Shown piece by piece: positions 2,150 to 28,440 of a DNA stretch of 35,001 bases. The notes below the pieces were generated by a model, which was given only the letters and a program-made list of their open reading frames with translations, had not been told where the DNA came from and made no database searches. The position numbers were made by a program, and so were the translations under genes. The DNA comes from a virus: positions 1 through 35,001 of the IMG/VR virus record IMGVR_UViG_3300021957_006387. One strand, given 5' to 3'. Numbering within the stretch: position 1 is the stretch's first letter; every line of letters begins with the position of its first letter.

Positions 2150-2168
2150 TAATAAAGGAATAAGATAA

Positions 2169-4163: not shown

Positions 4164-4181
4164 TAAAAAGGAATAAAATAA

Positions 4182-6140: not shown

Positions 6141-6158
6141 AGATAAAGGATAAAGTAA

Positions 6159-8363: not shown

Positions 8364-8378
8364 ACAAAGGAAAAGTAA

Positions 8379-10115: not shown

Positions 10116-10131
10116 ATAAAAGGAAAAGTAA

Positions 10132-11793: not shown

Positions 11794-11812
11794 GTAATTA
11801 AATTATATATAT

Positions 11813-11833
11813 AGTTAACAAAAAAAGGATAAG
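11813..11833 (+). repeat. 21-nt leader repeat before paralogue 7
   Basis: The 21 nt from AGTTAAC through seven A residues to GGATAAG recur exactly at 13659-13679 before paralogue 8. It includes the AAAGGA ribosome binding site and extends well upstream of it, so it is either a copied leader or a shared regulatory element. Confidence 0.8.
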
Positions 11834-11836
11834 TTA

Positions 11837-13648
11837 ATGAGTAACGCAAGAAAAATATCTCAACTTGTAGTTGGAACAGAAGTTAAAATTTCCAACGTAG
11901 ATTCTGATATTAATAATAGTTTAACTAATATTATATCTAGATTAGATTCTGACGATAGTAAATTACAATCACTTAATGTAGCAACAGCCGCTGCTTCAAG
12001 TGTTGCTGGTATAAGTGATTCAGATTTAAAAGTAGTTGCTGATTTAAGAAATGATTTAGATTCAGAAATATTATATGTAAGAAATATAAGACTTAGTTAC
12101 ACAAATTATCTTTATAACTCTACTGCAGGACAAACATCATTTACAGGAACTGATGCTAACTCAGCAACTCTAGCTTACACTGCTGGTTCAATTACAGTAT
12201 TTTTAAATGGTATTAAACTTGAAGCTGATGATTACACAGCTACAGATGGTACAACAATAGTTTTAACACAGCCAGCAGGTTTGAGTAGTCAGCTATCAAT
12301 TCTTTGTCCTAAATTAGAATCTCATCCAGCTGTAATACCTGCTACTACATATACATGGGCACTTGGTCATTCAGTAGATCAAGTAAAAATAGTTTCTAGT
12401 GATATAGGAACAGGAGATAGATTTGGATGGGATCTTGCTATAGATCAAGATGGTGATACAATGGTAGTTACTGCACCTTATTGGGATGGAGCTACATACC
12501 AACAAGATGGAGCTATTTACGTATATACAAGAGCATCTACAGATGCTACAGATAGTGACTGGACTGAGCAACAAAAAATGACAGCTGAAAGTTTTACTGG
12601 AGTTAATCATAATACTTACTTTGCATGGTCTGTTGATATTACAAATGACGGAGATACAATAGTTGCTGGTGCTCATAAAACACCAAACGATAAAGGTGGT
12701 CATCTAGTAGTATACTCAAGAACAGGTTCTACCTGGGCAATAGATAGCGAGTTATTTGCTAATGATATACCAGAGTCTTCTGCTCAAAGTGTTGATAGGC
12801 TAGGTGAAGCTGTTGCAATTTCTGGAGATGGAAATACAATTGTGGCTGGAGCTCCTGGTAAAGGATCCGGAGCAGGTAATGGATTTGCTTATATTTTCGT
12901 AAAAGATGAATATGGAGATTGGTCTCAAGAAGCAAAAATTTCTCCTCAATTTAAATCAGGAGGAAGTGCTTCTAGTCATGGAACTGATGGTAATCAAGAT
13001 TTTGGTAAAGCAGTAACTATTACAAATGATGGTAATACTATTGCAATTGGTGCACCTGGAAGATCAATTGGTAGTGGAAATATTACAGGACGTGTTGAAG
13101 TATTCACAAGATCTGGATCTTCATGGTCACATCAAGTAACTATTGAAAATGATACACCTACAGCTAGAGATGGCTTTGGTTGGACTGTATCTTTAGCAGG
13201 AAATGATGGAGATACATTAGCTATAGGTCAACATTATGAATACTCTGGATTTGACGGACATTCGTGGATATATATTAGATCTGGTTCTACGTGGTCACAG
13301 CAAGCAAAGTTAAGAGGTTATTCTATTACTGCTACTGAAGATTATGGTGTTGATGTTAGTCTTTCAGATACTGGAGATAGATTAATTGCTGGAGCACAAC
13401 AAGATAATGTTGCATCAGGACAAGAACCTGGTACAACTTTTATTTGGAGAAGAAATGACAGTGATGCTATTACATGGAATTTAGAAAGAAGAATAGAACC
13501 AACGTCTGGTTCTCATGATGATAGATTTGGATACGCAGTATCACTTGCAGGAGATAGTAGTACAATTGCAATAGGAGCTTACGGCGAAGGCGGCGGAGGC
13601 AGCAATTTAAATGGTGCTGTATATGTGTTTGTAGGCGAACAAGAATAA
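11837..13648 (+). CDS. Fibre/adhesin paralogue 7: short stalk + 7-blade propeller
   Basis: 603 aa. Tag MSNARKISQLVVGTEV, short stalk (landmark L86, one RLDSDD), connector about 88-167 (NSTAGQTSFTGTDAN, FLNGIKLEADDY). Propeller from W174 with seven blades. Openings include SSDIGTGDRFG, NDTPTARDGFG and TSGSHDDRFG; closing strands include YVYTRASTDATDSDW, VEVFTRSGSSW and FIWRRNDSDAITW; the end is VYVFVGEQE. Loops are longer than in paralogue 6. It has a 43-nt spacer upstream, longer than the 14-19 nt typical of earlier array genes, holding TATATATA about 24 nt before the ATG and a leader block that recurs before paralogue 8. It could therefore have its own weak late promoter. Confidence 0.74.
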   Translation: MSNARKISQLVVGTEVKISNVDSDINNSLTNIISRLDSDDSKLQSLNVATAAASSVAGISDSDLKVVADLRNDLDSEILYVRNIRLSYTNYLYNSTAGQTSFTGTDANSATLAYTAGSITVFLNGIKLEADDYTATDGTTIVLTQPAGLSSQLSILCPKLESHPAVIPATTYTWALGHSVDQVKIVSSDIGTGDRFGWDLAIDQDGDTMVVTAPYWDGATYQQDGAIYVYTRASTDATDSDWTEQQKMTAESFTGVNHNTYFAWSVDITNDGDTIVAGAHKTPNDKGGHLVVYSRTGSTWAIDSELFANDIPESSAQSVDRLGEAVAISGDGNTIVAGAPGKGSGAGNGFAYIFVKDEYGDWSQEAKISPQFKSGGSASSHGTDGNQDFGKAVTITNDGNTIAIGAPGRSIGSGNITGRVEVFTRSGSSWSHQVTIENDTPTARDGFGWTVSLAGNDGDTLAIGQHYEYSGFDGHSWIYIRSGSTWSQQAKLRGYSITATEDYGVDVSLSDTGDRLIAGAQQDNVASGQEPGTTFIWRRNDSDAITWNLERRIEPTSGSHDDRFGYAVSLAGDSSTIAIGAYGEGGGGSNLNGAVYVFVGEQE

Positions 13649-13658
13649 AAAATATTCA

Positions 13659-13679
13659 AGTTAACAAAAAAAGGATAAG
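13659..13679 (+). repeat. 21-nt leader repeat before paralogue 8
   Basis: Exact copy of 11813-11833, ending 4 nt before the ATG at 13684. Array genes further left have only the AAAGGA part. Confidence 0.8.
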
Positions 13680-13683
13680 GTAA

Positions 13684-15780
13684 ATGAGTAACGGAAGAAA
13701 ATTAGCTGACTTAATGGTTGGTACAAATGTAGTAGCAACTAATGTTGATTCAGATTTATCTACAAAAATTAATTCAATTAAAACAAGATTAGATTCTGAT
13801 GATACAAAGTTACAGTCTTTGGATACAGCAATACAAGCAGGGATTCAAAACTTAGCTGACTCTGATTTAATTATTAATCAATTACAAGCTAAGATAAATT
13901 CTGTCATATCTAATGTTGATTCAGATTCATCATTTGTACAATCCATCAATACACAAATAGATTTAATAAAATCAAGATTAGATTCAGACGATGCTAAACT
14001 TCAACAAGTAAGAACAAGTATTGCTTCAGAAATATCAGCTACCAACACAGACGTAAGTTCTATTATAGGTAGGTTAGATTCAGATAGCTCAAAGCTACAA
14101 CAATTAGACACCTCAATTGTATCAGTAAAAACTAGATTAGATTCAGACGATGCAGCTATTCAAGCAGCAACAACATTAGCTAGTGCAACAGCTGGTTCTG
14201 TAGGTGTAACAGATTCTGATTTAAAAGTAGTTGCTGATTTAAGAAATCAATTAGATTCTGAGATAATATTTGTAAAGAATTTTGCAATTAGTTATACAAA
14301 TTACATTTATAATTCTACTGCAGGACAAACATCATTTACAGGTAATGATGCTAACTCAGCAACTCTAGCTTACACAGCTGGAGCTATTCAAGTATTTTTA
14401 AATGGTATAAGATTAGAAGCTGACGACTATACAGCTACAGATGGAACAACTGTTGTATTAACTGAAGGTGCACAACTAGGTCATCAAGTTACTATTGTTT
14501 GTCCTAAGTTAGAATCAAATTATATACCTGCTCTTAACTGGGGTGCTTTGTCTCTTGTAACAGTACTTATGGGTGGTGATGGTGATGGTCCTGCAGGAAA
14601 TTTCGGAACCAATATTGATATGGCAGGTGATTATATTGCAGTTGGTGCTCCAGGTATGACTGGAGCTCATTATAGTGGAAGTGTTCAAGCTGGAGGAGTT
14701 TTTATATACAAAAGATCAGATTCAGAAGGTGGATATGGATGGCCAGAAACAACATTAATATACGATGGAAACGGCCTGTATCCTAATGCAGACGAACAAG
14801 ATCAGTTTGGATCCTCACTAGCTTTTACAGATGAAAATGGTGATAATTTATTAGTAACAAATACTAATACTAGCAACTCTGCTCGCCAATATAAAGTATA
14901 TCACTACACAAGATCTGGGACTACATGGTCTTTAGCTCAAACAATTAATGCTCCTACATATGGTGGTGCAAGTTCGGGCAATCAAATGGAAGCAAGTAAT
15001 AGCGATCATGGGTTTGGTAGAGATGGACGTTTATCAGCGAGTGGTGATTATTTTGTGGTTGGTGCTCCAACTGATGATGCTGGAGGTGATAATAAAGGTT
15101 CTGCATGGATGTATTATTATTCAAGTGGAAGTTATGCTATTCAACAAGAGTTAATTGGTTCTGACAATGGAGATGCTTCTAGATATGGAGAACAAGTATG
15201 TATCAATGGTGATGTAGCAGTAATAGGAGCTCCCGATCAAGATAAATATGATGGCTATAAAGGTGCTGCTTATGTATTCACAAGATCCGGATCATCGTGG
15301 TCTCAGCTACAAAAAATTCAGCCTCCGACTTCTGGTGTTCATTCTGATACTTCGGCTAGAAAAGGAATGGGTAAATCTGTATCAATTGATGGAGATTACA
15401 TAGCAATTGGAGCTCATCAGTCAACAGTGTCAACTTATACTTATGCTGGAAAAGTTTATATATACAAGTGGAATGGAAGTTCGTATGTCATAGATGGTTC
15501 AGTGACACCTTCTAATCCGATGCAATATGGTTATTTTGGACAATCGTGTGAAATAAGAGGTGATGTATTAATTGTAGGATCATACGGAAGAGTTTCTGGT
15601 TATGTTTTTACCAGAACTGGATCAACATGGACAGAACGAAAAATATTATTTCCTGGCAATACTCCTTTTAACTCAACTGGATTGGGTAGCACACAACAAT
15701 CTACTATTAATAAAGACACAACTAAAAATGAAGTAATATTAGGAGCAAATGGAAAGGGAGTGTGGGTTTACTCACTCTGA
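13684..15780 (+). CDS. Fibre/adhesin paralogue 8: long stalk + 7-blade propeller
   Basis: 698 aa. Tag MSNGRKLADLMVGTNV. The stalk is in the longest class (landmark residue 202) with RLDSD units spaced 63, 32 and 21, the same unit order as paralogue 2, although its first 64 stalk nucleotides (13741-13804) are identical to paralogue 5. Connector about 204-281 (NSTAGQTSFTGNDAN, FLNGIRLEADDY). Propeller from W286 (NWGALSLVTVLMGGDGDGP) with seven blades. Three closing strands deviate from the RSGTTW form (KRSDSEGGYGW, YYSSGSY, KWNGSSY), and the protein ends GVWVYSL. Upstream spacer of 35 nt carries the same 21-nt leader as paralogue 7. Confidence 0.74.
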   Translation: MSNGRKLADLMVGTNVVATNVDSDLSTKINSIKTRLDSDDTKLQSLDTAIQAGIQNLADSDLIINQLQAKINSVISNVDSDSSFVQSINTQIDLIKSRLDSDDAKLQQVRTSIASEISATNTDVSSIIGRLDSDSSKLQQLDTSIVSVKTRLDSDDAAIQAATTLASATAGSVGVTDSDLKVVADLRNQLDSEIIFVKNFAISYTNYIYNSTAGQTSFTGNDANSATLAYTAGAIQVFLNGIRLEADDYTATDGTTVVLTEGAQLGHQVTIVCPKLESNYIPALNWGALSLVTVLMGGDGDGPAGNFGTNIDMAGDYIAVGAPGMTGAHYSGSVQAGGVFIYKRSDSEGGYGWPETTLIYDGNGLYPNADEQDQFGSSLAFTDENGDNLLVTNTNTSNSARQYKVYHYTRSGTTWSLAQTINAPTYGGASSGNQMEASNSDHGFGRDGRLSASGDYFVVGAPTDDAGGDNKGSAWMYYYSSGSYAIQQELIGSDNGDASRYGEQVCINGDVAVIGAPDQDKYDGYKGAAYVFTRSGSSWSQLQKIQPPTSGVHSDTSARKGMGKSVSIDGDYIAIGAHQSTVSTYTYAGKVYIYKWNGSSYVIDGSVTPSNPMQYGYFGQSCEIRGDVLIVGSYGRVSGYVFTRTGSTWTERKILFPGNTPFNSTGLGSTQQSTINKDTTKNEVILGANGKGVWVYSL
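13741..13804 (+). repeat. 64-nt exact direct repeat, copy B (paralogue 8 stalk)
   Basis: Second copy of the block at 8436-8499, 5305 nt downstream in the same orientation and frame. Third-position identity over 21 codons indicates a recent exchange or duplication rather than protein-level conservation. Confidence 0.9.
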
Positions 15781-15841: not shown

Positions 15842-16576
15842 ATGAGTAGAGGTAGAGAACTAGCCAAATTAGTAGTAGGACAATCAGTTGTCGTAACTGG
15901 AGTTGATTCAGATTTAGCTAACACAATAGCAGCAATCAAAGGAAGATTAGATTCTGATGACACTAAACTTCAAGCTCTTGATACTGCATTAGCAGCTGAG
16001 ATTTCATCTACCAATACTGACATATCAGCTATTAGAGCAAGATTAGATTCTGAGCACGAAAACACCAGAAGTATTATTGCAGCTGGTTTAGTTAATTTAG
16101 CTGACTCTGATTTAATAGTAAGTCAGTTAACAGCAAAAGTAAGTGCAGCTATTACAAATTTGGATTCAGATTCAATAGCTTTACAAAATGTTCAAACACA
16201 AATAGATACTTTAAAAGGAAGATTAGATTCTGATGACACTAAACTTCAAGCTCTTGATACAGCAGTTACAGCAGCTCAAGCTAGAGCAGATGCAGCACAT
16301 GTAAGATTAGATTCAGACGAAGCAATCATTCAAGGTCTTAGAAATACATTTACATTTTTTGAATATACCGCAACAGCTGGACAAACCTCATTTAGTGGAA
16401 GTGATAATAATTCAGCATCTTTAATTTATACTGTCAATCAAATAATGGTTTTCTTGAACGGTATAAGATTAGAATCTTCTGACTACACAGCATCAAATGG
16501 TACTAGTGTCGTTTTAACAGAAGCTGCTGGTGTAAGCAATGATGTAACAATTGTTAGTTTAGTTAAGTCATCCTAA
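15842..16576 (+). CDS. Propeller-less array member: stalk + connector only
   Basis: 244 aa. It opens with a variant tag, MSRGRELAKLVVGQSV, followed by a stalk with four RLDSD/E units (32, 60 and 28 residues apart) and LADSDLIVSQLTAKV. It then has the family connector (TATAGQTSFSGSDNN, FLNGIRLESSDY, NGTSVVLTEAAG) and ends at once with VTIVSLVKSS, exactly where the others go on to the propeller. A 47-nt coding block is duplicated inside it (15938-15984 and 16214-16260). The stop is clean and no propeller remnant follows, so it reads as a designed short protein rather than a decayed copy. A perfect late box precedes it. It could be a base, spacer or hub for the long fibres, or a stand-alone fibre; this is inference. 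Confidence 0.75.
   Translation: MSRGRELAKLVVGQSVVVTGVDSDLANTIAAIKGRLDSDDTKLQALDTALAAEISSTNTDISAIRARLDSEHENTRSIIAAGLVNLADSDLIVSQLTAKVSAAITNLDSDSIALQNVQTQIDTLKGRLDSDDTKLQALDTAVTAAQARADAAHVRLDSDEAIIQGLRNTFTFFEYTATAGQTSFSGSDNNSASLIYTVNQIMVFLNGIRLESSDYTASNGTSVVLTEAAGVSNDVTIVSLVKSS
15938..15984 (+). repeat. 47-nt exact repeat within the propeller-less gene, copy A
   Basis: Identical to 16214-16260, 276 nt (92 codons) downstream in the same frame. It encodes a GRLDSDDTKLQALDT stalk unit and records an internal duplication of a stalk segment. Confidence 0.85.
16214..16260 (+). repeat. 47-nt exact repeat within the propeller-less gene, copy B
   Basis: Second copy of the stalk-unit block at 15938-15984. 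The two copies flank the LADSDLIVSQLTAK part of the stalk. Confidence 0.85.
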
Positions 16577-16625: not shown

Positions 16626-19600
16626 ATGGCATATGACTCCGAAAACATTCCTTTAGTTACAAGGATTGAATCAGGCAATGGTAATAACGTAAGTTTTTCT
16701 GTGAATTCAGAAGGTGAGGGTGTTTATAAAATAAACTCTCTTGTTGATTCTGATTTTGTAAAAAGTGTTATTTCAGAAAATCCTGCTGTTGTTGATTCTG
16801 ATATTGTATATAACATGATTAGAGAACATGCTGCTTCTTCAGATGTTTCTGGTGATACTGTTACGTTAAATAATCCCTCCGATGGTTCTTTATCTGTAGA
16901 GCCTGGAATAATAAATTTAGAAGTAAACAACACAGTAGCAGATGCTATTGATAGATTAAACGAAGCTTCAAGAAATGTTTTAAAAAATACAGCTGTAGCT
17001 AATCTAGATTTTACTGGAGATAATTTAGTTGGTGGAGCTGGTTTTACTACAACATTAACAACATCAGCAGATGGTACTCCAAATAGATATGATGTTTATT
17101 GGGGTGATGGTACAGTAGATTCAGACAGTTCTGATAGCACACCTTCCCATACATATAACAGTAACAGTGGTTCTCCTTTTACTGTAAAAGTTGTAGCAAG
17201 AAATAATTCTGGTGAAGGTGCAGGTTCATTTTCAATAAAAGAAAGATCTAATTATGTTATTGTGTATACAGCTACACCAGTAGTTAGCTTTGCAATATAT
17301 GCAGCTTCTTCTGGTGGTTCTCCTATTACAAATTGGGATGATGGAGCAACTGTATATCTACAAAATAACACAACTAATACTTCGAATTCAACTGCTACGT
17401 ATAATTGGAATTTTGGAGATAGTGATGGTGTTTATTATGTTAGTAACGATGGTCAAGCAGGTGGTTCTGTAAACAATGGTGGTTCAAGGTTACCTTATAC
17501 TTTTGATTCTGTCACTGAGACTGATCGAACTTTTAATATTTCATTAACTTTAAATACACACACGACAGCTAATCCATCTGATCTTCCTATAGCTGATTCT
17601 GATAACACATATAAAATATATGATACACATACACCAGTAGTATCAATAGACGATAATGATGGTATTAACGAAGAAGCTACATCAGGACATACTGTTCAAG
17701 CAACTAACAACAGTGGAGCTGGCGTAGGAAGTTATTCAGTTTATGGAAATCAATATGTATATGTGTGGGGTGATGGTACTTCTAACACAACTGTAAATGC
17801 TGGTTCAGGTTCATCTGGCGACAGAGGAGTTGGATCAGTTTCACATACATATGCTTTATCAGGTTCTAATCAATCTAATGGAAATTCGACTACTTTTAAT
17901 GGTGAATTGAGAATTACATCTTTACATTCAAGTTCGCCTTTTTCATCTTCACCTTTTAGTGTAACAGTAAGACCTGATTTGAGAGTTAATGTTGCATTAG
18001 CTTCTACGGATGGTAATTTAACATTATCTGATAGAACTGGAGACAACGTAGGTAGCTTATATAAGTTTACAGATTATAACAACAAAGTTAGATCTAGAGT
18101 TGACCTTGTAAATACATCTCAAAATGCTAGTAGTTATATTATTGAAAGAGGTTTTGGAACTCCAGTATCTAGAACTCAAGGATCTGGTGATCCTGGCACT
18201 GTAGGAGGAAGCAATCAAAATTTTCAGTTTGATGCTGAAGATACTGGTACTTATATTGTTAGAGTAAGAGGTTTTGGTTCACCAGGTGGAGTAGCTCAAG
18301 AAGACAGCGAAACATTAACTGTAACTTTATCAGATCCCCCAACAGCACCTAGTTATCTTACTGAACGTACTTTAACTTTAGCTACATCAAGTGTAGGAAC
18401 TAATCCAAAAACAGCTTATTATGATGCTTCATCAGGGTACGATAGAACTCAAGATGCACCTACATTATCACCTGGAACTAGTTTAACTAGTTCTATAGCA
18501 AGAAGATATACTGGTACCGGTACATTTAGTACAACAACATTAAACGGTGTAGGAGATGCAACTACTGGTTATTTAAGGGCTAGAAAAGGTACAAATGTTA
18601 TAATTGGAACAACAACTTTTACTACTGATTTAAATCAAAACGGAACTTTTGATTCTTTGATAGTATCTAATCAAGGAGACGCTCATGATACTGTTAGTAG
18701 TTCAACTTACCCAACTGGTTTTTATCAAACATTTGATGCTACAATAACTCATTCTTTAGCTAGTGGATCAACATCTAATGGTTTAAATGCTTTTAGATTA
18801 GAAAGTAGTTTTGGCAATTCTAGTTATGTACATATACTTAAAGACAGTGTAACAGATACACCAACTATATCTAATGCAGGTACATTAAGCGTAGGCAATG
18901 CAGGTTCGTTGAAATATATATCTGGTATACCTTACTTCAACTCAGGTTCTCCAACTGTTAGTGTATCAGGAATTACTATTACAAATTTAGTTGGTCTAGC
19001 TTACATTGATGCTTCTAATATTGTTGAAATAGATACTAGTACAAATCAAGAAGGTACATCAGCTTCAGGTACAAATAATACAGACTATACATATGCTAAC
19101 ATAGATGGTTCAACTACAATGTTAAATAGTGGTTTTCCTATAGCAGGAATTGGTAGTGAAGGTACACCATATGCTATTGGAGATTTAAGTGTTCCTATTA
19201 CATCTTCGTCTGTAAGAACTGTAGATAGAATAAAAATAAGAGCTAGAAATGTTAATGGTGTAAGTTCATATGTTGAAAATACAACAAATATAAATGTACA
19301 TACTGCAGCTCAAAGTGGTTTTAATGAAAACTCTATAAGCGTTTCAAATAGTTTAGGATCTACATTTACAGATAACGCAATTAGATCAGCAGCATTTAAA
19401 TCTGAAACAACTAATACACCTTCTTTAAGAGGTTCAAGTTTTAATTATTATTCTACAGAAACTTTTACAGAATCAGCTGATCCTGGCGTAGCTGGAACAA
19501 AAGAAGCTACAGTAAGATTAGGAATATTAAAACACGACGTTACTAACTATTCAACATATGTTCCACCAGGACCAAATAGATCAAGTGATACTGGTACTCA

Positions 19601-19976
19601 GTTTTATACATTAGCATTTAGAAGAGCTGCTATGGCTAACTTTACTGTAAATATAGTTTCAAGTACAGGTATTGAAGGAATGTTTATAGCTGCACCAGGA
19701 ACAACAATAGATAATTCTTCTGGTACAAATGGTTGGTTAAATTGTGGATCACAATATGCTGGAGCAGGTGTTCCAGGAAGCAATACAGGTAGTGGAGGAA
19801 ATGGCTCTGATGGATGTGCGTCTACAGGAGCTGATGTAGTAGGTACTGGAACTTTAAATGGATCCTTTACTTTTACTTTAGGTACAGAAAATTCAACAAA
19901 TGCAGATAGCAATGTTGTATTATTGAGAATAGCTTTAGCAGCTAACGACACAATAACTAGTTTGAGTATTAATTAA
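16626..19976 (+). CDS. Large virion structural protein with PKD-like domains
   Basis: 1116 aa. The N-terminal 120 residues contain two VDSD motifs and IDRLNEASRNVLKN, probably an attachment region. PKD-like (Ig-fold) domains follow, recognised by WGDG motifs and later SHTY strands: VYWGDGTVDS with W159 then SHTYNSN, YNWNFGDSDG near 258-268, and YVWGDGTSN with W381 then SHTYALSG. The remainder is Ser/Thr/Gly-rich beta sequence without a motif I can name, ending in a glycine-rich part (AGVPGSNTGSGGNGSDG) and LRIALAANDTITSLSIN. PKD-type proteins are known structural proteins of marine T4-like phages and often mediate surface binding. It follows the array by 49 nt with AGAGG before the ATG, and its TAA overlaps the next ATG by one base, implying translational coupling. 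Confidence 0.65.
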   Translation: MAYDSENIPLVTRIESGNGNNVSFSVNSEGEGVYKINSLVDSDFVKSVISENPAVVDSDIVYNMIREHAASSDVSGDTVTLNNPSDGSLSVEPGIINLEVNNTVADAIDRLNEASRNVLKNTAVANLDFTGDNLVGGAGFTTTLTTSADGTPNRYDVYWGDGTVDSDSSDSTPSHTYNSNSGSPFTVKVVARNNSGEGAGSFSIKERSNYVIVYTATPVVSFAIYAASSGGSPITNWDDGATVYLQNNTTNTSNSTATYNWNFGDSDGVYYVSNDGQAGGSVNNGGSRLPYTFDSVTETDRTFNISLTLNTHTTANPSDLPIADSDNTYKIYDTHTPVVSIDDNDGINEEATSGHTVQATNNSGAGVGSYSVYGNQYVYVWGDGTSNTTVNAGSGSSGDRGVGSVSHTYALSGSNQSNGNSTTFNGELRITSLHSSSPFSSSPFSVTVRPDLRVNVALASTDGNLTLSDRTGDNVGSLYKFTDYNNKVRSRVDLVNTSQNASSYIIERGFGTPVSRTQGSGDPGTVGGSNQNFQFDAEDTGTYIVRVRGFGSPGGVAQEDSETLTVTLSDPPTAPSYLTERTLTLATSSVGTNPKTAYYDASSGYDRTQDAPTLSPGTSLTSSIARRYTGTGTFSTTTLNGVGDATTGYLRARKGTNVIIGTTTFTTDLNQNGTFDSLIVSNQGDAHDTVSSSTYPTGFYQTFDATITHSLASGSTSNGLNAFRLESSFGNSSYVHILKDSVTDTPTISNAGTLSVGNAGSLKYISGIPYFNSGSPTVSVSGITITNLVGLAYIDASNIVEIDTSTNQEGTSASGTNNTDYTYANIDGSTTMLNSGFPIAGIGSEGTPYAIGDLSVPITSSSVRTVDRIKIRARNVNGVSSYVENTTNINVHTAAQSGFNENSISVSNSLGSTFTDNAIRSAAFKSETTNTPSLRGSSFNYYSTETFTESADPGVAGTKEATVRLGILKHDVTNYSTYVPPGPNRSSDTGTQFYTLAFRRAAMANFTVNIVSSTGIEGMFIAAPGTTIDNSSGTNGWLNCGSQYAGAGVPGSNTGSGGNGSDGCASTGADVVGTGTLNGSFTFTLGTENSTNADSNVVLLRIALAANDTITSLSIN

Positions 19977-21751
19977 TGGCTATTAGTTTAAAATCAAAAG
20001 TCGATTTTCTATTTAAGAAATTAGGTTTCAATGTTACAAGAACTGATTCTGATAGTCTTAAAGGAGCAACTAACGAATCAATACCATCACCGTTAGTCAT
20101 AAGAGGCGACTTAACTTGGAACAAAGCTGGAGCTATTCCTAATGCAATTCCAAGTTCAGATAATTCTATAGTTGAAGTTTATGGTTCAAATAATTTAATT
20201 CAAACTACAATGGACGGAACAGCTTCAACCAATCGTACGTGGCTAACAGGATTAACCAATTGGATCAATCCAGAATTTGGAGCTACATATCAAGTTAAAG
20301 TTTATATACACACAACAGACGATAGCGATAGTGCTGCTAATATAAGTAAACAAGTTTTTGCCTCAGGTTCCGGAAATAACGATGAATGGTTTTTTGATTA
20401 TTCGTCTGGTGTGTTACATTTTATGGGAGAGAATTTACCTAACGGTGTAAGTTTTTCTGGTAAATCTGTTTACATAAGTGGAGCAAGATATGTAGGACCA
20501 TTAGGTTTAGATGAGTTTGTTCCTAATGCTATGAACGAATCTGATCAAGCTGTTGTTTCACAACACACTAGAGATATAAGTAGTTTAAAAAATGCTTTAG
20601 ATTCAGATTATATTTTATTTCAACAAAAAATATCTAACATAGTAGGTATAGGTGACTCTGATTTAAGTGTAGCTGCAACATTAAGAAATAATGTTGATAG
20701 TTTAAGATTAGATGTTGATTCAGATACCATATTTGTTCAAAATCTTAGAACAAAACAAACACAATTAAAACTTTCAATAGACTCTGATTATGCATTATTT
20801 CAAAATAAAATATTAAGTATAAAAGGTATTGAAGATTCTGATTTGACAGTCATGGCTAATTTAAGAAATGATGTAGACAGTTTAATTTCAGACAGAGATT
20901 CAGACACTTCTTTCATACAAAATCTTAAATCGAAACAACAGTTGTTGAAAACTTCATTAGATTCAGATCATGATCTTTTTCAATCAAAACTTTTACAAAT
21001 CGAAGGTATAGGTGATTCTGATTTAACAGTCATGGCTAATTTAAGAAACGAAGTGGATAACCTTAAATTAGACAGAGATTCAGATACAATTATATTACAA
21101 AGTTTAAAAATTAAACAAGATGAAATTCTTCAATTGTTAGATTCAGATCAAGCTCAAATTCAAGCTATACGTACTGAAGTTAGAACAAGATTAGATTCAG
21201 ACTTTGGTCATTTTGCTAGCAAAATATCTGTTGGTGTTGACTCTGACTTACAAACTTTAACTACAAAAGTTTCAAGTCTAATGTTAGATAGAGATTCAGA
21301 TACAATTGTTATTCAAGATCTTAATAAAAGATTGAATATATTAGAAGCTGCAATAGGTGTTACACCATCACAACCAGATGCAACACCTGTACCAACTGAT
21401 TCAGAAACATTAGGAACATTACAATTCCAGACAGACAGTGATAATACACTTGAAGAAAGTATTACTGTTGCGTGGAGAGTAATAGCAGGTGACGGTGCAA
21501 CTGTTACTATTAACACAGTATTATTTGCCAAAGGAATGACTGATGCAAATGTACTACAAATCTTGTATATTAATATTATTGATCACCCAATAGCTAATAG
21601 ATATTGGGAAGTGTTTGCATTGAGAGGTGGAAATAAAATTGAATATGCGTTTAAGGAAAAATATAGTTTATTAGGATACACTTTAACTGTTTCAGTAACT
21701 AAACAAGGAAGTGACAATGCTAATTTTACTAACACAGTTCCTTCATCGTAG
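19976..21751 (+). CDS. Virion structural protein with three 60-residue LDSD repeats
   Basis: 591 aa. Residues 1-190 form a domain I associate with structural proteins of T4-like marine phages (VDFLFKKLGFNVTRTDSDS, NRTWLTGLTNWINPEFG, YQVKVYIHTTD, NDEWFFDYSSGVLHF, GKSVYISGARYVGPLG). Residues 209-388 are three repeats of exactly 60 residues (DSDxxLFQxKI..., GIxDSDLTVMANLRNxVD, DRDSDTxxxQxLK), very likely coiled coil. Further DSD units run to about 445. The C-terminal 120 residues form a different, probably globular domain (ESITVAWRVIAGDGATVTIN, RYWEVFALRGGNKIEYAF). The DSDLxVxAxLRNxxDS segment resembles DSDLKVVADLRNELDSEI of the upstream fibre stalks. The role is presumably tail- or fibre-associated. 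Its ATG overlaps the previous stop (ATTAATG), with no strong ribosome binding site. Confidence 0.65.
   Translation: MAISLKSKVDFLFKKLGFNVTRTDSDSLKGATNESIPSPLVIRGDLTWNKAGAIPNAIPSSDNSIVEVYGSNNLIQTTMDGTASTNRTWLTGLTNWINPEFGATYQVKVYIHTTDDSDSAANISKQVFASGSGNNDEWFFDYSSGVLHFMGENLPNGVSFSGKSVYISGARYVGPLGLDEFVPNAMNESDQAVVSQHTRDISSLKNALDSDYILFQQKISNIVGIGDSDLSVAATLRNNVDSLRLDVDSDTIFVQNLRTKQTQLKLSIDSDYALFQNKILSIKGIEDSDLTVMANLRNDVDSLISDRDSDTSFIQNLKSKQQLLKTSLDSDHDLFQSKLLQIEGIGDSDLTVMANLRNEVDNLKLDRDSDTIILQSLKIKQDEILQLLDSDQAQIQAIRTEVRTRLDSDFGHFASKISVGVDSDLQTLTTKVSSLMLDRDSDTIVIQDLNKRLNILEAAIGVTPSQPDATPVPTDSETLGTLQFQTDSDNTLEESITVAWRVIAGDGATVTINTVLFAKGMTDANVLQILYINIIDHPIANRYWEVFALRGGNKIEYAFKEKYSLLGYTLTVSVTKQGSDNANFTNTVPSS
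20600..21139 (+). repeat. Three in-frame 180-nt (60-residue) repeats
   Basis: Residues 209-268, 269-328 and 329-388 of the 591-aa protein align without gaps. Each starts DSD(Y/H), contains GIxDSDL(S/T)V near position 17-24, LRN near 28-30 and DSDT at 40-43. Repeats 2 and 3 are closest (DSDLTVMANLRN in both). Confidence 0.9.
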
Positions 21752-21813: not shown

Positions 21814-24006
21814 ATGGCGTTCCAAGTTAGCCCAGGTGTACAGGTCAAAGAAAAAGACCTAACAAATATAATCCCAGCAGTTGCAACTTCAACAGGAGCT
21901 TTTGCAGGAAATTTCGAATGGGGTCCATGTCTAGAACCAACATTAATAAGTTCAGAAGAACAGTTAGTTTCTATATTTGGTAACCCAGTTGTTTCAACCA
22001 TAGCAGGTGAAAGTAACAGAACAGATTGGTATTCAGCAGCAAACTTTTTATCTTATGCTAATGCTATTCAAGTTTGTAGAATTTTAACAGACGGTGCAAG
22101 AAATGCTGCATCAGAATTCTCAACATTAGAAGCTGGTAAAACAACTTTGACAATAACAGGTACTACTCCTGTTTTTACCTTTCCAGACTCAGACGGAGAA
22201 GGTCATAAAACAGAAACTGTTACAATAGGAGCAATTACTGGTGCATCAGCTTTCACATTTAGAGTAACAGACTCAGACAATATAAGTAACTCTGGTGATA
22301 TAGCAAACATAATTAAAAATGCTATTAACGTTGAAGGAAACGCAGTAGATGCTGCAATTGATTCAGACGGGTCATCATCATTAAGTAATGATGCAACAAT
22401 AACTTTTACAACACCAGCTGGTACAGATCCATCTGCAGTAACTACTATAGGTTTGTCTTTTATTCCAATAGAAGAACAAGAACAAGGTGCAGGATTTTCT
22501 ACAGCAGCTGTTCTCAATAACTTAGATGATTTTATTGCAGAAGAAAGTACACTTACAAACGGATCTGTATATGCAAGATTTCCAGGTTCAAGAGGAAATG
22601 GTGTAGGTGTTATTTTAATTGATGCATCAATAACAGATAGTGATTTTTTAAATACATCTTTAGTTAATAGCGGAACAATAAAAGCAGGTGAATTTTTTGA
22701 TAAAAAACCTGGAAAGTCTCAATGGTCAACTGATACATTTGATTCAGATGTCAACGATGAAGTTCATATAATTGTACATACAACAGATACAACTATCACA
22801 GGAAATGCATTTGAAGTTTTAGAGACACATGAAGCTTTGTCTAAAGCAGGTAATGGTTTAACTGCTGATGGTGGTCAGAATTATTACAAAACTATTGTTA
22901 ACAATACTAGTAATTGGATTTACATTTTATCTGAAGATAACGCTAATGGAACCTCAGTTACTTCTTTAACTAACAGTGAACAAACAACTGCAATAGGAAC
23001 TAGTATCTACAAAAGTAATCAAAATGATTTTGTAAGATTTGTTTCAAATGCATCAATAGCTGGTGTTAGAAGATATAATCTTAACGGAGGTTCATCAGGT
23101 GATGATATTGACGCAGCAGATTACACATCAGCATTAGATAAGTTTAAAGATGCTGAAGAAATTGATATATCTCTTTTAATAGGTAATCATTTTGGATCAG
23201 GTACATCAAATGCATTAAAACAAAAAACTGTACAAAAATATGCAATAGACAACATTGCTAAAATAAGAAAAGATTGTATAGTTTATGTGTCACCATCATA
23301 TGATTCAGCTGTTATAAACCCAACTGCTAAGAAAGTTGCAGATCATTTTGCTGATTACAACAGTAATTCATACACTGTTTTTGATTCAGCTTGGAAAAGA
23401 ATGTATGATAGATACAACGATGAGTATTTTTGGTCACCTTTAGCAGGAGATACTGCTGGGTTGACAGCAAGATCAGAATATACAAACGATGCATGGTGGT
23501 CACCAGCTGGTTTCAACAGAGGCTTTGTTTCAAATGTTACTAAGTTATCTTACAATCCACAACAAGCTGACAGAGATGCTCTGTATAGGGAAAGAATAAA
23601 TCCTGTTGTTACTGTAAGAGGACAAGGTACTTTATTGTTTGGAGATAAAACAGCTCTATCTAGACCTTCAGCATTTGATAGAATCAATGTAAGAAGATTG
23701 TTTATAGTTTTAGAAAAAGCAATAGCAACAGCAGCAAAGTTTCAGTTGTTTGAATTCAACGATGATTTCACAAGAGCTAATTTTGTAGCAGCTATAGAAC
23801 CTTTCTTACAAGACATAAAAGCAAGAAGAGGTGTACAAGACTTCAAAGTTGTTTGTGACACTACTAATAACACATCAGCAGTGATCGATGGCAATAGATT
23901 TGTAGCAGATATTTATATCAAGCCAAACAGATCAATTAACTTTATTACTCTTAATTTTGTAGCAGTACGAACTGGAGTAAGTTTTGAAGAAGTAGCAGGA
24001 GCTTAA
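21814..24006 (+). CDS. gp18: Contractile tail sheath protein (gp18-like)
   Basis: 730 aa. The start (FQVSPGVQVKEKDLT, then GAFAGNFEWGP) and especially the C-terminal half match T4 gp18 as I recall it: RYNDEYFWSPLAGDTAGL, DAWWSPAGFNRG, YRERINPVVT, GDKTALSRPSAFDRINVRRL, FKVVCDTTNNTSAVIDGNRF, SINFITLNFVAVRTG. It forms the contractile outer cylinder of the tail around the gp19 tube. It is somewhat longer than T4 gp18 (659 aa). Residues about 109-225 hold a DSD-bearing beta-rich segment (FPDSDGEGHKTETVTIG, FRVTDSDNISNSGD) probably lying in the surface-exposed variable domains. A strong AAGGAG site precedes the ATG, with a perfect late box 43 nt upstream. gp19 follows by one base. Confidence 0.95.
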   Translation: MAFQVSPGVQVKEKDLTNIIPAVATSTGAFAGNFEWGPCLEPTLISSEEQLVSIFGNPVVSTIAGESNRTDWYSAANFLSYANAIQVCRILTDGARNAASEFSTLEAGKTTLTITGTTPVFTFPDSDGEGHKTETVTIGAITGASAFTFRVTDSDNISNSGDIANIIKNAINVEGNAVDAAIDSDGSSSLSNDATITFTTPAGTDPSAVTTIGLSFIPIEEQEQGAGFSTAAVLNNLDDFIAEESTLTNGSVYARFPGSRGNGVGVILIDASITDSDFLNTSLVNSGTIKAGEFFDKKPGKSQWSTDTFDSDVNDEVHIIVHTTDTTITGNAFEVLETHEALSKAGNGLTADGGQNYYKTIVNNTSNWIYILSEDNANGTSVTSLTNSEQTTAIGTSIYKSNQNDFVRFVSNASIAGVRRYNLNGGSSGDDIDAADYTSALDKFKDAEEIDISLLIGNHFGSGTSNALKQKTVQKYAIDNIAKIRKDCIVYVSPSYDSAVINPTAKKVADHFADYNSNSYTVFDSAWKRMYDRYNDEYFWSPLAGDTAGLTARSEYTNDAWWSPAGFNRGFVSNVTKLSYNPQQADRDALYRERINPVVTVRGQGTLLFGDKTALSRPSAFDRINVRRLFIVLEKAIATAAKFQLFEFNDDFTRANFVAAIEPFLQDIKARRGVQDFKVVCDTTNNTSAVIDGNRFVADIYIKPNRSINFITLNFVAVRTGVSFEEVAGA

Positions 24007-24614: not shown

Positions 24615-26231
24615 ATGGCAGAAAAAACTATTAATCTTTTTGGATTTGATTTAGTCACTCCAGAAAATGAAAAAAAACAAGTAAGTCCTGTACCTGTTGA
24701 AATGGATGACGGTACAGAACTTCCTGTTGGAGGACGCGTTGGTTACACATATGAAATTGATAAAAAATATCGAAACGAACATCAATTAATAACTCAATAT
24801 AGAAACGTGAGCTTTTATCCAGAAGCTGATGCTGCAATAGACGATATTGTTAATGAAGCTTTTGTTGTTGAACATGAAAGAGCTCCAGTATCAATACGTT
24901 TAGATACTCTGAATATAGACGATAGAATTAAAAAGATAATAAGAAGCGAGTTTAAAAACGTATTACATTATCTTAAATTTCAAAGAAAATCTTATGATCT
25001 ATTTAGACAATGGTACATAGATGGTAGATTGTTTTTTCAAGTAATAATAGATAAAAAAAATCCTAAAGATGGTATTCATGAACTAAGACCTATCGACGCT
25101 TTAAAAATAAAAAGAATGGTTAAACCTGAATACGAAAAAGATAAAAATACAGGTGTTCCAGTTCTTACAAAAGTAAACGAATGGTACGAATATGCTCCAG
25201 ATAAAAATATGAATAGCTCTGCTAAACTATCAAAAGATAGTGTAGTTTTTTGCCCTTCTGGTATACTTGACAGAAACAGAGGAATGATTGTAGGTTATTT
25301 AGATAAAGCTATTAAACCATTTAATAATTTAAGATCAATGGAAGATGCTTTAATTGTTTATAGAATAGCAAGAGCTCCTGAAAGAAGAATATTTTATGTA
25401 GATGTTGGTCAGCTTCCTAAGATTAAAGCTGAACAATATATTAAAGATATGATGAATAGATATAGAAATAAAATTGATTATGATCCTAGTACTGGTTCAA
25501 TAAGAGATAGTAGAAAATTTATGTCTATGTTAGAAGATTTTTGGTTACCAAGAAGAGATGGATCAAAAGGAACTGAAATTACTACACTTCCAGGAGGACA
25601 AAATCTAGGTGATCTTGATGATGTTGAATATTTTAAAGGCAAGTTGTATCAATCTTTAAATGTACCTATGAGTAGAATCAATCAAGATAATAATTTTCAA
25701 CTTGGAAGAGCTTCAGATATTAGTAGAGATGAATTGAAATTTACAAAATTTATTCACAGAATAAGAAAACAATTTGCTGAATTGTTTAATGAAGTGTTGA
25801 GAGTACAATTAGTTTTAAAAGGCGTATGTACAACTGGTGAATTTGAAGAGATGAGACAGTATATAACATATGATTATATTTCTGATACACATTTTGAAAA
25901 TTTAAAAAGAATTGAAATACTAGGAGATCAACTTAATGTGTTAAGAGATGCTTCTGAATATGTTGGTAAATATTTTTCTATAGAATATATAAGAAAAGAA
26001 ATACTTGGTCAAACAGAAGAAGACATTGCAAGAATTGATAAACAAATTATGAGTGAAATGGATAAAGAACAAATACAAGATATAGATGTTCCTTCTGACA
26101 TTGCAAATAACGACTTTGTTAATATGTATGATGATTATAAAAAGTCACCAGAGATGACCTTAACAGAAAACAGTAGTGATTTAGATATAAATACTACAGT
26201 AATAGAAGAGGATTCTGATGCCATTACCTAA
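24615..26231 (+). CDS. gp20: Portal vertex protein (gp20-like)
   Basis: 538 aa, close to T4 gp20 (524 aa). Recognisable portal segments are QYRNVSFYPEADAAIDDIVN near the N-terminus, the crown/wing region (LKFQRKSYDLFRQWYIDGRL, FQVIIDKKNPKDGI, ELRPIDALKIKRM), RIARAPERRIFYVDVGQLPK, FWLPRRDGSKGTEI and ITTLPGGQNLGDLDDVEYF, then RINQDNNFQLGRASDISRDE. The dodecameric portal nucleates the prohead, is the DNA channel and binds terminase and neck. The C-terminus is acidic and ends EEDSDAIT. GAGGAA precedes the ATG. The last 14 nt overlap the next gene. A perfect TATAAATA lies inside its 3' end. Confidence 0.95.
   Translation: MAEKTINLFGFDLVTPENEKKQVSPVPVEMDDGTELPVGGRVGYTYEIDKKYRNEHQLITQYRNVSFYPEADAAIDDIVNEAFVVEHERAPVSIRLDTLNIDDRIKKIIRSEFKNVLHYLKFQRKSYDLFRQWYIDGRLFFQVIIDKKNPKDGIHELRPIDALKIKRMVKPEYEKDKNTGVPVLTKVNEWYEYAPDKNMNSSAKLSKDSVVFCPSGILDRNRGMIVGYLDKAIKPFNNLRSMEDALIVYRIARAPERRIFYVDVGQLPKIKAEQYIKDMMNRYRNKIDYDPSTGSIRDSRKFMSMLEDFWLPRRDGSKGTEITTLPGGQNLGDLDDVEYFKGKLYQSLNVPMSRINQDNNFQLGRASDISRDELKFTKFIHRIRKQFAELFNEVLRVQLVLKGVCTTGEFEEMRQYITYDYISDTHFENLKRIEILGDQLNVLRDASEYVGKYFSIEYIRKEILGQTEEDIARIDKQIMSEMDKEQIQDIDVPSDIANNDFVNMYDDYKKSPEMTLTENSSDLDINTTVIEEDSDAIT
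26186..26193 (+). promoter_or_regulatory. Possible intragenic late promoter before the gp13-like gene
   Basis: Perfect TATAAATA inside the portal 3' end, 24 nt before ATG 26218, matching the spacing of intergenic boxes. Chance is possible in AT-rich coding DNA. Confidence 0.4.
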
Positions 26232-27219
26232 TAGTAAACAAGAGTTAGCTGATTATATATTAAGAAAATTAGGAGCTCCTGTTATTAATGTTGAGATAGC
26301 AGATATACAATTGGAAGATTGTATAGATGATGCTGTACAACTGTATCAAGAATATCATTTTGATGGCGCAGAAAGAACATATAGATTAATTAAAATTGAT
26401 GAAAAATTTCTAAACAGAAATACAAGAAAACATCAAACAATGACAGCTGAAGATTATGTTAGTACTGAAACATATTCTAAAGGTGCTAGAGTGATGCATA
26501 AAATAGATAACGTAACCGGACAAAGAATATACATTAAGACTGATTCTGATGGTGCGTTTGATTCTGAAGCAACTTTTTCAACTAAATTTCAATTAGAAGA
26601 AAAAATTTTAGAAGATCAGAATATAACATTAACAGATGGTGGAAAGGTAGGAATCAAAGTTCCTAATGACATTATATCAGTTACTAAAATTGCTAAGGTT
26701 GATTCGTTTAGTCAAGCAGGTATGTGGAATTATGAGTACCAATATTTTTTAAATAACTTTGATTTTTTCTACGGTGGAATGGCAGGTGGTGGTTTAACTT
26801 CATATTACATTCAGAAATCTTTCATTGAACATATTGAATTTTTATTAAACACTTCACCAGCTATAAGATTTAACAAACATAAAAATAGATTATATTTAGA
26901 TGTTGATATGAATAGACTTAAACATGTTTCTAATGGTGGTAAAAAAACACATTATTTGTTAGCTGAATGTTATGTAATTACAGATCCAGAAATTTATGGA
27001 CAAGTATATCAAGACAGTTGGTTGAAATCTTATTCAGTATCATTAGCTAAGATGCAATGGGGTGCTAATTTAAAAAAATATATGAACACAGAATTACCTG
27101 GCGGGGTTCAATTAGATGGTCAAACATTATACAACGAAGGTAAAGAAGAAGAACTAGCTTTAAGAGAAGAGCTTAGAAACAATAACCAATTAGAGCTAGA
27201 CTCTATTTTATGGGGATAA
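26218..27219 (+). CDS. gp13: Neck protein, gp13-like
   Basis: 333 aa (T4 gp13 is 309 aa). The start KQELADYILRKLGAPVINVE...QLEDCIDDAVQLYQEYHFDG parallels T4 gp13 as remembered (LKDVILRRLGAPIINVELT...ALELYGEYHFDG). The C-terminus ELPGGVQLDGQTLYNEGKEE followed by ALREEL parallels MLPGGVTIDGQRLIEEAR...ALREEL. In T4 gp13 forms the neck with gp14, closing the filled head and accepting the tail. Residues about 100-140 contain a DSD-bearing insertion (IKTDSDGAFDSEATFS). Location is unusual: it sits directly after the portal and overlaps it by 14 nt, whereas in T4 gene 13 lies with 14-16, upstream of the tail sheath gene. AAGAGG at 26206-26211 is the ribosome binding site. Confidence 0.8.
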   Translation: MPLPNSKQELADYILRKLGAPVINVEIADIQLEDCIDDAVQLYQEYHFDGAERTYRLIKIDEKFLNRNTRKHQTMTAEDYVSTETYSKGARVMHKIDNVTGQRIYIKTDSDGAFDSEATFSTKFQLEEKILEDQNITLTDGGKVGIKVPNDIISVTKIAKVDSFSQAGMWNYEYQYFLNNFDFFYGGMAGGGLTSYYIQKSFIEHIEFLLNTSPAIRFNKHKNRLYLDVDMNRLKHVSNGGKKTHYLLAECYVITDPEIYGQVYQDSWLKSYSVSLAKMQWGANLKKYMNTELPGGVQLDGQTLYNEGKEEELALREELRNNNQLELDSILWG

Positions 27220-28101: not shown

Positions 28102-28440
28102 ATGGCTAATACTATAATAGCAAAAAGAATTACAGCAAGAGATCAAAACTCTGCAAGAGTAACATTGCATATTGATGCAGCATCTGCTTTTGATTCAGAC
28201 GCATTATTGTTTACATTAGAAACTGGTGAAACAAAAAGATTTCAACCTAATAGAATAGAGACAGTTATTAATATGGGACCTAATGATGTTACATTAGACG
28301 GTAAAGTATTTGAATCAGGCAATTGGTTGCTATCTCAATTTGGAGGTTTACCTTTTATTGGAGCAGCAGGAGGAGGTTCTCTTACTGTTGTAGGTACTAG
28401 CCCTAATGCAATAATTGAATTGAGAGGCTTCTTAGTATAA
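28102..28440 (+). CDS. 112-aa hypothetical, probable small virion protein
   Basis: I do not recognise a family. 112 aa, no signal peptide or membrane helix. It is beta-rich with glycine-rich turns: SARVTLHIDAASAFDSDALL, FTLETGETKRFQPNRIETVI, GPNDVTLDGKVFESGNWLLS, FIGAAGGGSLTVVGTSPNA, ELRGFLV. The pattern looks like a compact beta-sandwich, as in small head decoration or joining proteins; that is a guess from composition and context. It has a good AGGAG site six bases before ATG, overlapping the stop of the preceding gene, and lies 18 nt before the protease gene in the head module, so a capsid-related role is the best assumption. Confidence 0.6.
   Translation: MANTIIAKRITARDQNSARVTLHIDAASAFDSDALLFTLETGETKRFQPNRIETVINMGPNDVTLDGKVFESGNWLLSQFGGLPFIGAAGGGSLTVVGTSPNAIIELRGFLV

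Follow-up and report, generated by a model that had tools for sequence, protein, structure and literature searches.

How are three 60-residue repeats in a viral tail protein related to the stalks of the fibres encoded upstream, and what does their common motif mean? The window, i.e. the entire stretch of 35,001 nucleotides analysed here (IMG/VR virus record IMGVR_UViG_3300021957_006387), encodes both (Table 1). Positions 20600-21139 correspond to residues 209-388 of the ORF at 19976-21751. Aligned without gaps, the three 60-residue units are identical at 39/60, 34/60 and 38/60 positions. The best 60-mer at offset 60 within the coil of the 591-aa protein reaches 41/60 identical residues, compared to a maximum of 17/60 at this offset in 2000 shuffled coils. 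This bears out the claim of an earlier note on this DNA that three gap-free repeats are present. The same note had called them exact, which applies to their length and register but not to their sequence identity: At the DNA level, units share 116-122 of 180 nucleotides. Each unit carries the tripeptide DSD three times, at spacings of 18/21/21. When DSD spacings were examined for coil periodicity, no clear phase emerged (0.49 at 3.4, the edge of the scanned range, 0.42 at 3.5 and 0.36 at 3.6). The record from which the window stems was also searched with a degenerate DNA pattern of this repeat block, without a match.

The units resemble the fibres in two respects. A block of the form GI.DSDL.V.A.LRN.VD is present in 3/3 units and was compared with the connector DSDLKVVADLRN of the fibres using a matrix that was derived from all eight connectors and disregards the DSD columns. 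All three units match above chance: They score 17.6-24.5, against maxima of 15.2 among 200,000 windows from shuffled coils and 10.8 among 200,000 position-matched windows. The 58 other DSD windows from the eight fibres minus their connectors, the 244-aa protein, the PKD-like protein and the sheath scored at most -5.5. Three groups of loci were then scanned in their ORFs of 80 aa or more, with clade A here comprising the window, G003, L001, L002 and L004. A score of at least 12 was obtained at 18 places in clade A, eight of them the source connectors and ten within the 591-aa protein and its orthologues (window 3, L001 3, L002 2, G003 1, L004 1). None of 39,196 windows in eight clade B loci and none of 517,393 control windows reached this score; the maximum was 9.8. 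In G003, the block is located in the 591-aa orthologue, and all other ORFs remain below 12. The L002 block, SGIGDSDLKVVADLRNEVDQLR, is nearly the fibre connector sequence. The second common unit is DSDxxx[LIVFM]Q, to which 8/16 DSD in the 591-aa protein and 29/56 in the fibres and the 244-aa protein belong. It was found at 0/13 DSD in five globular proteins of the window, in none of ten G015 ORFs counted and in 4/8 ORFs counted in G003.

The proximity of the repeat block to the fibre connector, proposed in the earlier note, is thus confirmed by the matrix scores. The refuting outcome named there, a similarity no greater than among generic coiled coils, was not obtained with shuffled and position-matched controls. 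The description of the repeat-bearing polypeptide as an otherwise unrelated protein was too narrow, since it also looks fibre-like and its stalk has DSDxxx[LIVFM]Q in common with the fibres. Common origin or an exchange of stalk segments between the 591-aa protein and the fibres is well supported by these sequence comparisons. The proposal of a shared building block stops short, as DSD is also found in unrelated folds.

Table 1. Positions of the features in the 35,001-nt window
Feature	Position	Strand	Remarks
Eight fibre paralogues	236..15780	+	DSD stalk, one DSDLKV connector each, distal domain; FG-GAP match in the two of eight scanned
Fibre connector windows	starts 668, 2685, 4614, 6591, 8547, 10300, 12005, 14200
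244-aa stalk protein	15842..16576	+	fibre-type N-terminus and stalk, 6 DSD, without FG-GAP match
1116-aa PKD-like protein	16626..19976	+	weak PKD, below Pfam cut-off; 5 DSD vs 0.58 expected
591-aa tail protein, probably fibre-like	19976..21751	+	ORF; 16 DSD vs 0.66 expected; low-confidence AF2 model
N-terminal domain, conserved, residues 1-180	19976..20515	+	phrog_9417 (unknown function)
Stalk repeat 1, 60 aa	20600..20779	+	gap-free alignment
Connector-like block 1, VGIGDSDLSVAATLRNNVDSLR	20642..20707	+	score 19.3
Stalk repeat 2, 60 aa	20780..20959	+	gap-free alignment
Connector-like block 2, KGIEDSDLTVMANLRNDVDSLI	20822..20887	+	score 24.5
Stalk repeat 3, 60 aa	20960..21139	+	gap-free alignment
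Connector-like block 3, EGIGDSDLTVMANLRNEVDNLK	21002..21067	+	score 17.6
Tail sheath (gp18)	21814..24006	+	5 DSD vs 0.38 expected, all between two T4 gp18-alignable parts
Head-tail adaptor (neck) protein	26218..27219	+	1 DSD (relatives 1-3)
112-aa protein of unknown function	28102..28440	+	1 DSD; homologues with 1-2 in both clades

The 591-aa protein is probably fibre-like and composed of an N-terminal domain, a helical stalk and a distal domain. Residues 1-180 match phrog_9417 (E 5.7e-34). With this domain as tblastn query, 50 phage records were found, 38 of them from Caulobacter phages and some annotated as tail protein. Among viral contigs, the N-domain is conserved in 80/80 loci kept and the remainder of the protein is variable; these loci were chosen by similarity to the query, and their ORFs range from 178 to 2178 aa, some of them ending at contig ends. 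The DSD stalk is confined to L001-L005 with 10-14 DSD per protein. The proteins of the other 75 loci have 0-3, and these loci as a whole 0-5 vs 0.2-3.9 expected. At the N-domain sites TDSD and DDSDSA, the orthologues lacking DSD have e.g. TDTN and GDAGNA. A single-chain AF2 model of the 591-aa protein is weak (mean pLDDT 52.9). It predicts some beta structure near either terminus and, in between, helices at residues 227-281, 288-340 and 349-459, each long helix being opened by a GI.DSDL block. A Pfam scan of the protein yielded nothing useful, i.e. a single chance match (E 0.18) and no FG-GAP domain. In both fibres scanned, the FG-GAP matches are strong. The eight fibres form a tandem cassette array with near-identical starts (MSN[GA]R[KR]) and divergent distal parts. 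A scan of viral contigs with one whole fibre as query did not return relatives.

DSD is not limited to stalks. No other tripeptide exceeds expectation as strongly in the window (85 DSD vs 7.4 expected). DSD also ranks top in seven globular tail or neck proteins or domains, fibres excluded (16 vs 1.4, P about 3e-12), in which every other tripeptide has P of at least 3e-4. Besides the stalks, the carriers in the window are the sheath, the PKD-like protein, the N- and C-domains of the 591-aa protein, the portal, the neck protein and the 112-aa protein. The tube, protease, scaffold and major capsid ORFs of the window contain no DSD. A breadth control was applied, too: In 15 control sets, no tripeptide was present in at least two copies at fivefold expectation in more than five proteins. 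By the same measure, DSD stands out in 11/70 proteins in G003 and 9/52 in G009, where the next-best tripeptides arrive at 6 and 4, respectively, and in 12/23 proteins of the window, a figure that is inflated by the eight fibre paralogues. Since sheath, neck, sheath-stabiliser, baseplate and PKD-like proteins carry DSD without any coiled-coil relation, stalk homology is insufficient as an explanation. Where coiled-coil stalks of such phages resemble each other, a shared short motif can be part of the reason, and the 60-residue repeats would be the visible tip of a DSD pattern across tail proteins.

The tripeptide itself is specific in its central serine. Compared to expectation, DSD amounts to 16/1.4 in the globular set of the window, 71/3.7 in the G003 tail and 54/2.8 in the G009 tail. 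For other D-x-D tripeptides, the lowest P is 0.05 (DLD 6/2.6 in G003), and G009 displays small excesses of DAD (4/2.2) and DND (3/2.2). Generic D-x-D metal binding is made unlikely by the lack of any other clearly enriched D-x-D. DSE is in excess, too: weakly so in clade A (4/0.9, 6/1.4), but strongly in L178 and other tail proteins of clade B, which contain 15 vs 1.5 expected; hence, the last acidic residue may vary in this clade.

DSD sites are retained during divergence. When five proteins or domains of the window were compared with their G003 orthologues (identity 0.64-0.96), 14/14 DSD of the window proved to be kept, compared to 129/329 other triplets of D, S, N, T, G and E. An alignment of eleven DSD-rich sheaths places the DSD serines in ten columns: three common to clades A and B, two adjacent ones that are perhaps one site, one found only in clade A and four in parts of clade B. 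The L083 sheath has DSE at two of these places. Judged from this alignment, sheath DSD sites do turn over, though only in part. In window numbering, nine columns precede residue 422, the start of the C-terminal part that aligns with T4 gp18, and the tenth is located at about 430. Residues 83-365 of T4 gp18 are presumably the exposed part of the sheath. They constitute its protease-resistant fragment according to the accessible text of PMC9230969. Among 85 sheath-type ORFs counted, 54 lack DSD and 8 contain a single copy. Three copies are present in 2 and five in 21, and these 23 sheaths belong to clade A (seven rows, with two contigs represented twice) and clade B (L083-L098), whose sheaths are 54-57% identical. 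In the clade B loci (9/16 examined), DSD is present in neck and small proteins, once in each major capsid ORF, and in scaffold ORFs at 0-2 copies.

A similar picture was obtained with gp15 of G003 as query. All 29 contigs with at least 53% identity are DSD-enriched (7.5-28x), G003 itself and some near-copies being included and the gp15 ORF of L228 being cut and free of DSD. Four remote gp15 contigs have one DSD each vs 0.2-0.9 expected. In G015, a 152-kb contig read as eight pieces, the partition is sharp: 139 of its 146 DSD fall into 17 of 177 ORFs, and the remaining 160 ORFs together contain 7 vs 10.6 expected. When ten of the 17 were scanned against PHROGs, four matched (two baseplate wedge subunits, one head closure Hc2 and one to families of unknown function) and six did not. 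The gp15, sheath and adaptor proteins among the DSD carriers were assigned by similarity. The unmatched G015 ORFs are probably tail proteins as well; two of them, at 36.2 and 42.0 kb, stand away from the tail genes. As far as DSD-concentrating ORFs can be named from their sequences, they are predicted to encode proteins of the fibres, sheath, neck and baseplate as well as the sheath stabiliser. No enrichment was seen in the tube, major capsid and packaging ORFs or in the others examined. At sequence level, DSD is thus a conserved tripeptide that recurs across folds, yet clusters in certain ORFs.

The highest DSD count seen, 36, is found in a 1081-aa ORF of L231 (20,855 b). A different excess was observed in L173, the Cr30 record: SNT is over-represented in 5/36 proteins (29 vs 6.4), as is ANT. 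This could be another motif of the DSD kind or simple repeats.

Which enzymes might act on such sites? In G015 and G009, and partly in G006, the region that separates the tail genes from the large terminase is an island of glycosyltransferase (GT)-like genes, Asp/Asn hydroxylase-like genes and others. One further island gene appears by our own reading to encode a SAM methyltransferase. G003 has a comparable but diverged island. It includes two twitch-domain radical SAM proteins (L161:5426-6844 and L161:8960-10318; NF033640, both above cut-off). Modification islands with GT-like ORFs adjoin the tail genes in L244 (8615-20000) and L177 (3497-17890), and other ORFs there look methyltransferase-, sulfotransferase-, SDR- and GNAT-like to us. 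TauD proteins are encoded in the island, too, and PF05118 matches were found in G003 (three proteins, one below cut-off) and L083. The hydroxylase-like, TauD and sulfotransferase- or acetyltransferase-like proteins make other chemistries possible. PF05118 hydroxylases as specific partners of DSD were set aside, since they also occur in Mosig and P-HM1.

The GT-like family has invariant residues D85 and D87 (DxD). An AF2 model of one member (pLDDT 79.9, pTM 0.82) was compared with the PDB, and all 50 matches listed are glycosyltransferases by title, the best being LARGE1 (E 1.7e-8), with BoGT6a, LgtC, UGGT and GlyE among the others. LARGE1, LgtC and similar matches are taken here to be GT-A enzymes. 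Pfam, PHROGs and NCBIfam did not provide a family name for the cassette GTs scanned, and PDB sequence searches with two GT-like proteins yielded nothing below E 0.2. The searches for glycosyltransferases covered PF00535 and this GT-like family; PF00535 members were not detected in five contigs of clade A. Within the GT-like family, identity between the clade A protein and the clade B reference is 28%. How well the family tracks DSD depends on the search. With a single protein as query, it was found in 4/11 mostly short DSD contigs, one of them the query's own, and in 1/9 complete named genomes. With a profile, three or four copies were detected in 5/6 longer DSD contigs, which is not an unbiased count, as five of the six were picked after a GT had already been seen and some are near-copies of one another, and in 1/9 controls. 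This control is Mosig, the genome already hit by the single-protein search; it has three GT matches, and DSD is not enriched in the stretch examined. Among the gp15 loci, 10/29 have a GT match within reach. Eight loci with GT relatives at 31-43% identity have DSD at 0.8-2.7x expectation. These sequence data make a link between the GT-like family and DSD suggestive only.

From these observations, DSD looks like a conserved attachment site. Tentatively, we favour the reading that it is a sequon on the exposed tail for a phage-encoded modification. O-glycosylation is the leading candidate, because the minimal DSD tripeptide is an SdgB substrate and glycosylation of phage virions has precedent (see below). 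The stalk would be built from two units shared with the fibres, DSDxxx[hydrophobic]Q and G[ILVM]xDSDLxVxAxLRNxVD, with predicted helices beginning at the latter. A phage-encoded enzyme would modify the DSD acceptor on the exposed tail surface: The serine might be O-glycosylated by the glycosyltransferases encoded beside the tail genes, with involvement of the methyltransferase-like protein. Sugars coating the tail in this way could lend stability to the fibres or serve as a shield for the particle. We infer the exposure of the DSD sites, their modification, the enzyme and the function from sequence. A wider proposal is possible, if rather doubtful: A T4-like clade would have evolved a virion-wide, fold-independent DSD sequon in most outer tail and neck proteins, and the adjoining GT/methyltransferase cassette would decorate the serines.

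The partial turnover of sheath sites, the DSE excess and the DSD in major capsid and scaffold ORFs of clade B speak against the sequon reading. The coil context of DSD in the stalks is a further counterpoint to modification, and there DSD may be structural. Extended to all sites, this leads to an explanation without any modification, in which DSD is a helix cap, a turn or an ion-binding element, stalk-segment exchange accounts for the common blocks and the DSD of other proteins would occupy turns at the surface. The specific stalk contexts, the long helices opening at GI.DSDL in the low-confidence AF2 model and the location of the sheath sites in indel-rich stretches agree with it. A turn or an ion site would be expected to accept DTD, DND, DGD and DAD as well, none of which is clearly enriched, and DSD occurs in predicted helices as well as in unrelated globular proteins, so that a purely structural role is unlikely on balance. 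A different modification or a binding partner, such as phosphorylation, aspartate hydroxylation by the Asp/Asn hydroxylase-like proteins or the docking of an assembly chaperone or a small decoration protein, appears still less probable. The PF05118 matches in G003 and L083 and the DSE excess of clade B, where the last acidic residue is variable, would fit. Against this, the stretches examined in Mosig and P-HM1 have PF05118 without being DSD-rich, and it is not obvious why the docking of just one partner should require 16 copies per protein.

Two further explanations carry little weight. The earlier note had considered that the 591-aa protein and the fibre stalks pair in mixed coiled coils, for which the connector block and the DSDxxx[LIVFM]Q units in both would speak. 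The DSD spacing of the 591-aa units differs from that in the fibres (e.g. 15/25/22/20/21/24), so that registers would be mismatched over the length, and such pairing is very unlikely. The idea that GATTCWGAT or GANTC repeats spread as DNA and the amino acids merely follow would profit from the codon usage, as 78/85 DSD in the window have a TCN serine codon, which creates GANTC. It deserves practically no credence: The window uses 12 different nonamers for DSD, and the first twelve ORFs have 82/0/0 DSD in the three sense frames and 0/1/0 in the antisense frames, which refutes a DNA-level motif.

The preferred reading, a sequon for modification, would give the pattern a wider meaning. A tripeptide that selection maintains in numerous virion proteins without common ancestry, and that divides a set of tail-type ORFs sharply from the remaining genome, would be a readable sign of a surface code. 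Such a code could explain why glycosyltransferase and other modification genes adjoin the tail genes and, if true, would amount to a general coating code for a viral tail. In the literature searched, which leaves most subscription journals outside, no prior report of DSD or Asp-Ser-Asp in phage tails was found. Among phages, the tail proteins of Caulobacter and marine phages with phrog_9417 have the N-terminal 180 residues in common with the 591-aa protein, but 75/80 related loci differ from it by lacking the DSD stalk. Kyanoviridae T4-like phages and their relatives have homologous sheath, sheath stabiliser, neck and baseplate wedge proteins in similar gene neighbourhoods. In contrast to the DSD contigs, stretches of 30-42 kb from each of nine named phages of this kind have DSD at expectation (1/2.5 to 7/4.0).

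Two known glycosylation systems are relevant to the proposed modification. Mycobacteriophages are described to modify their own structural proteins by phage-encoded glycosyltransferases, the glycans being attached to the C-termini of capsid and tail tube subunits (Freeman et al., 2023, as cited in the accessible parts of PMC12619734 and PMC12363180). By contrast, the major capsid and tube ORFs of the window lack DSD, which is carried by its sheath, neck and fibre proteins. The second system is found in staphylococci, where SdgA and SdgB act on SD-repeat proteins; the likeness consists in the serine within DSD as acceptor, which is a candidate acceptor here. As far as the available text of PMC8561734 and PMC3794999 describes it, SdgB, whose fold is GT-B, O-GlcNAcylates the minimal DSD tripeptide, and its targets are cell-wall adhesins in which the SD dipeptide is repeated over long stretches. 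Here, single DSD are dispersed over many virion proteins, the stalk sites are at least 15 residues apart, and the candidate enzymes resemble LARGE1 and LgtC. Since continuous SD-dipeptide repeats are absent, the phage DSD system is not a member of the staphylococcal one. If the sequon reading is right, DSD on the phage tail would nevertheless work like the DSD of the staphylococcal adhesins.
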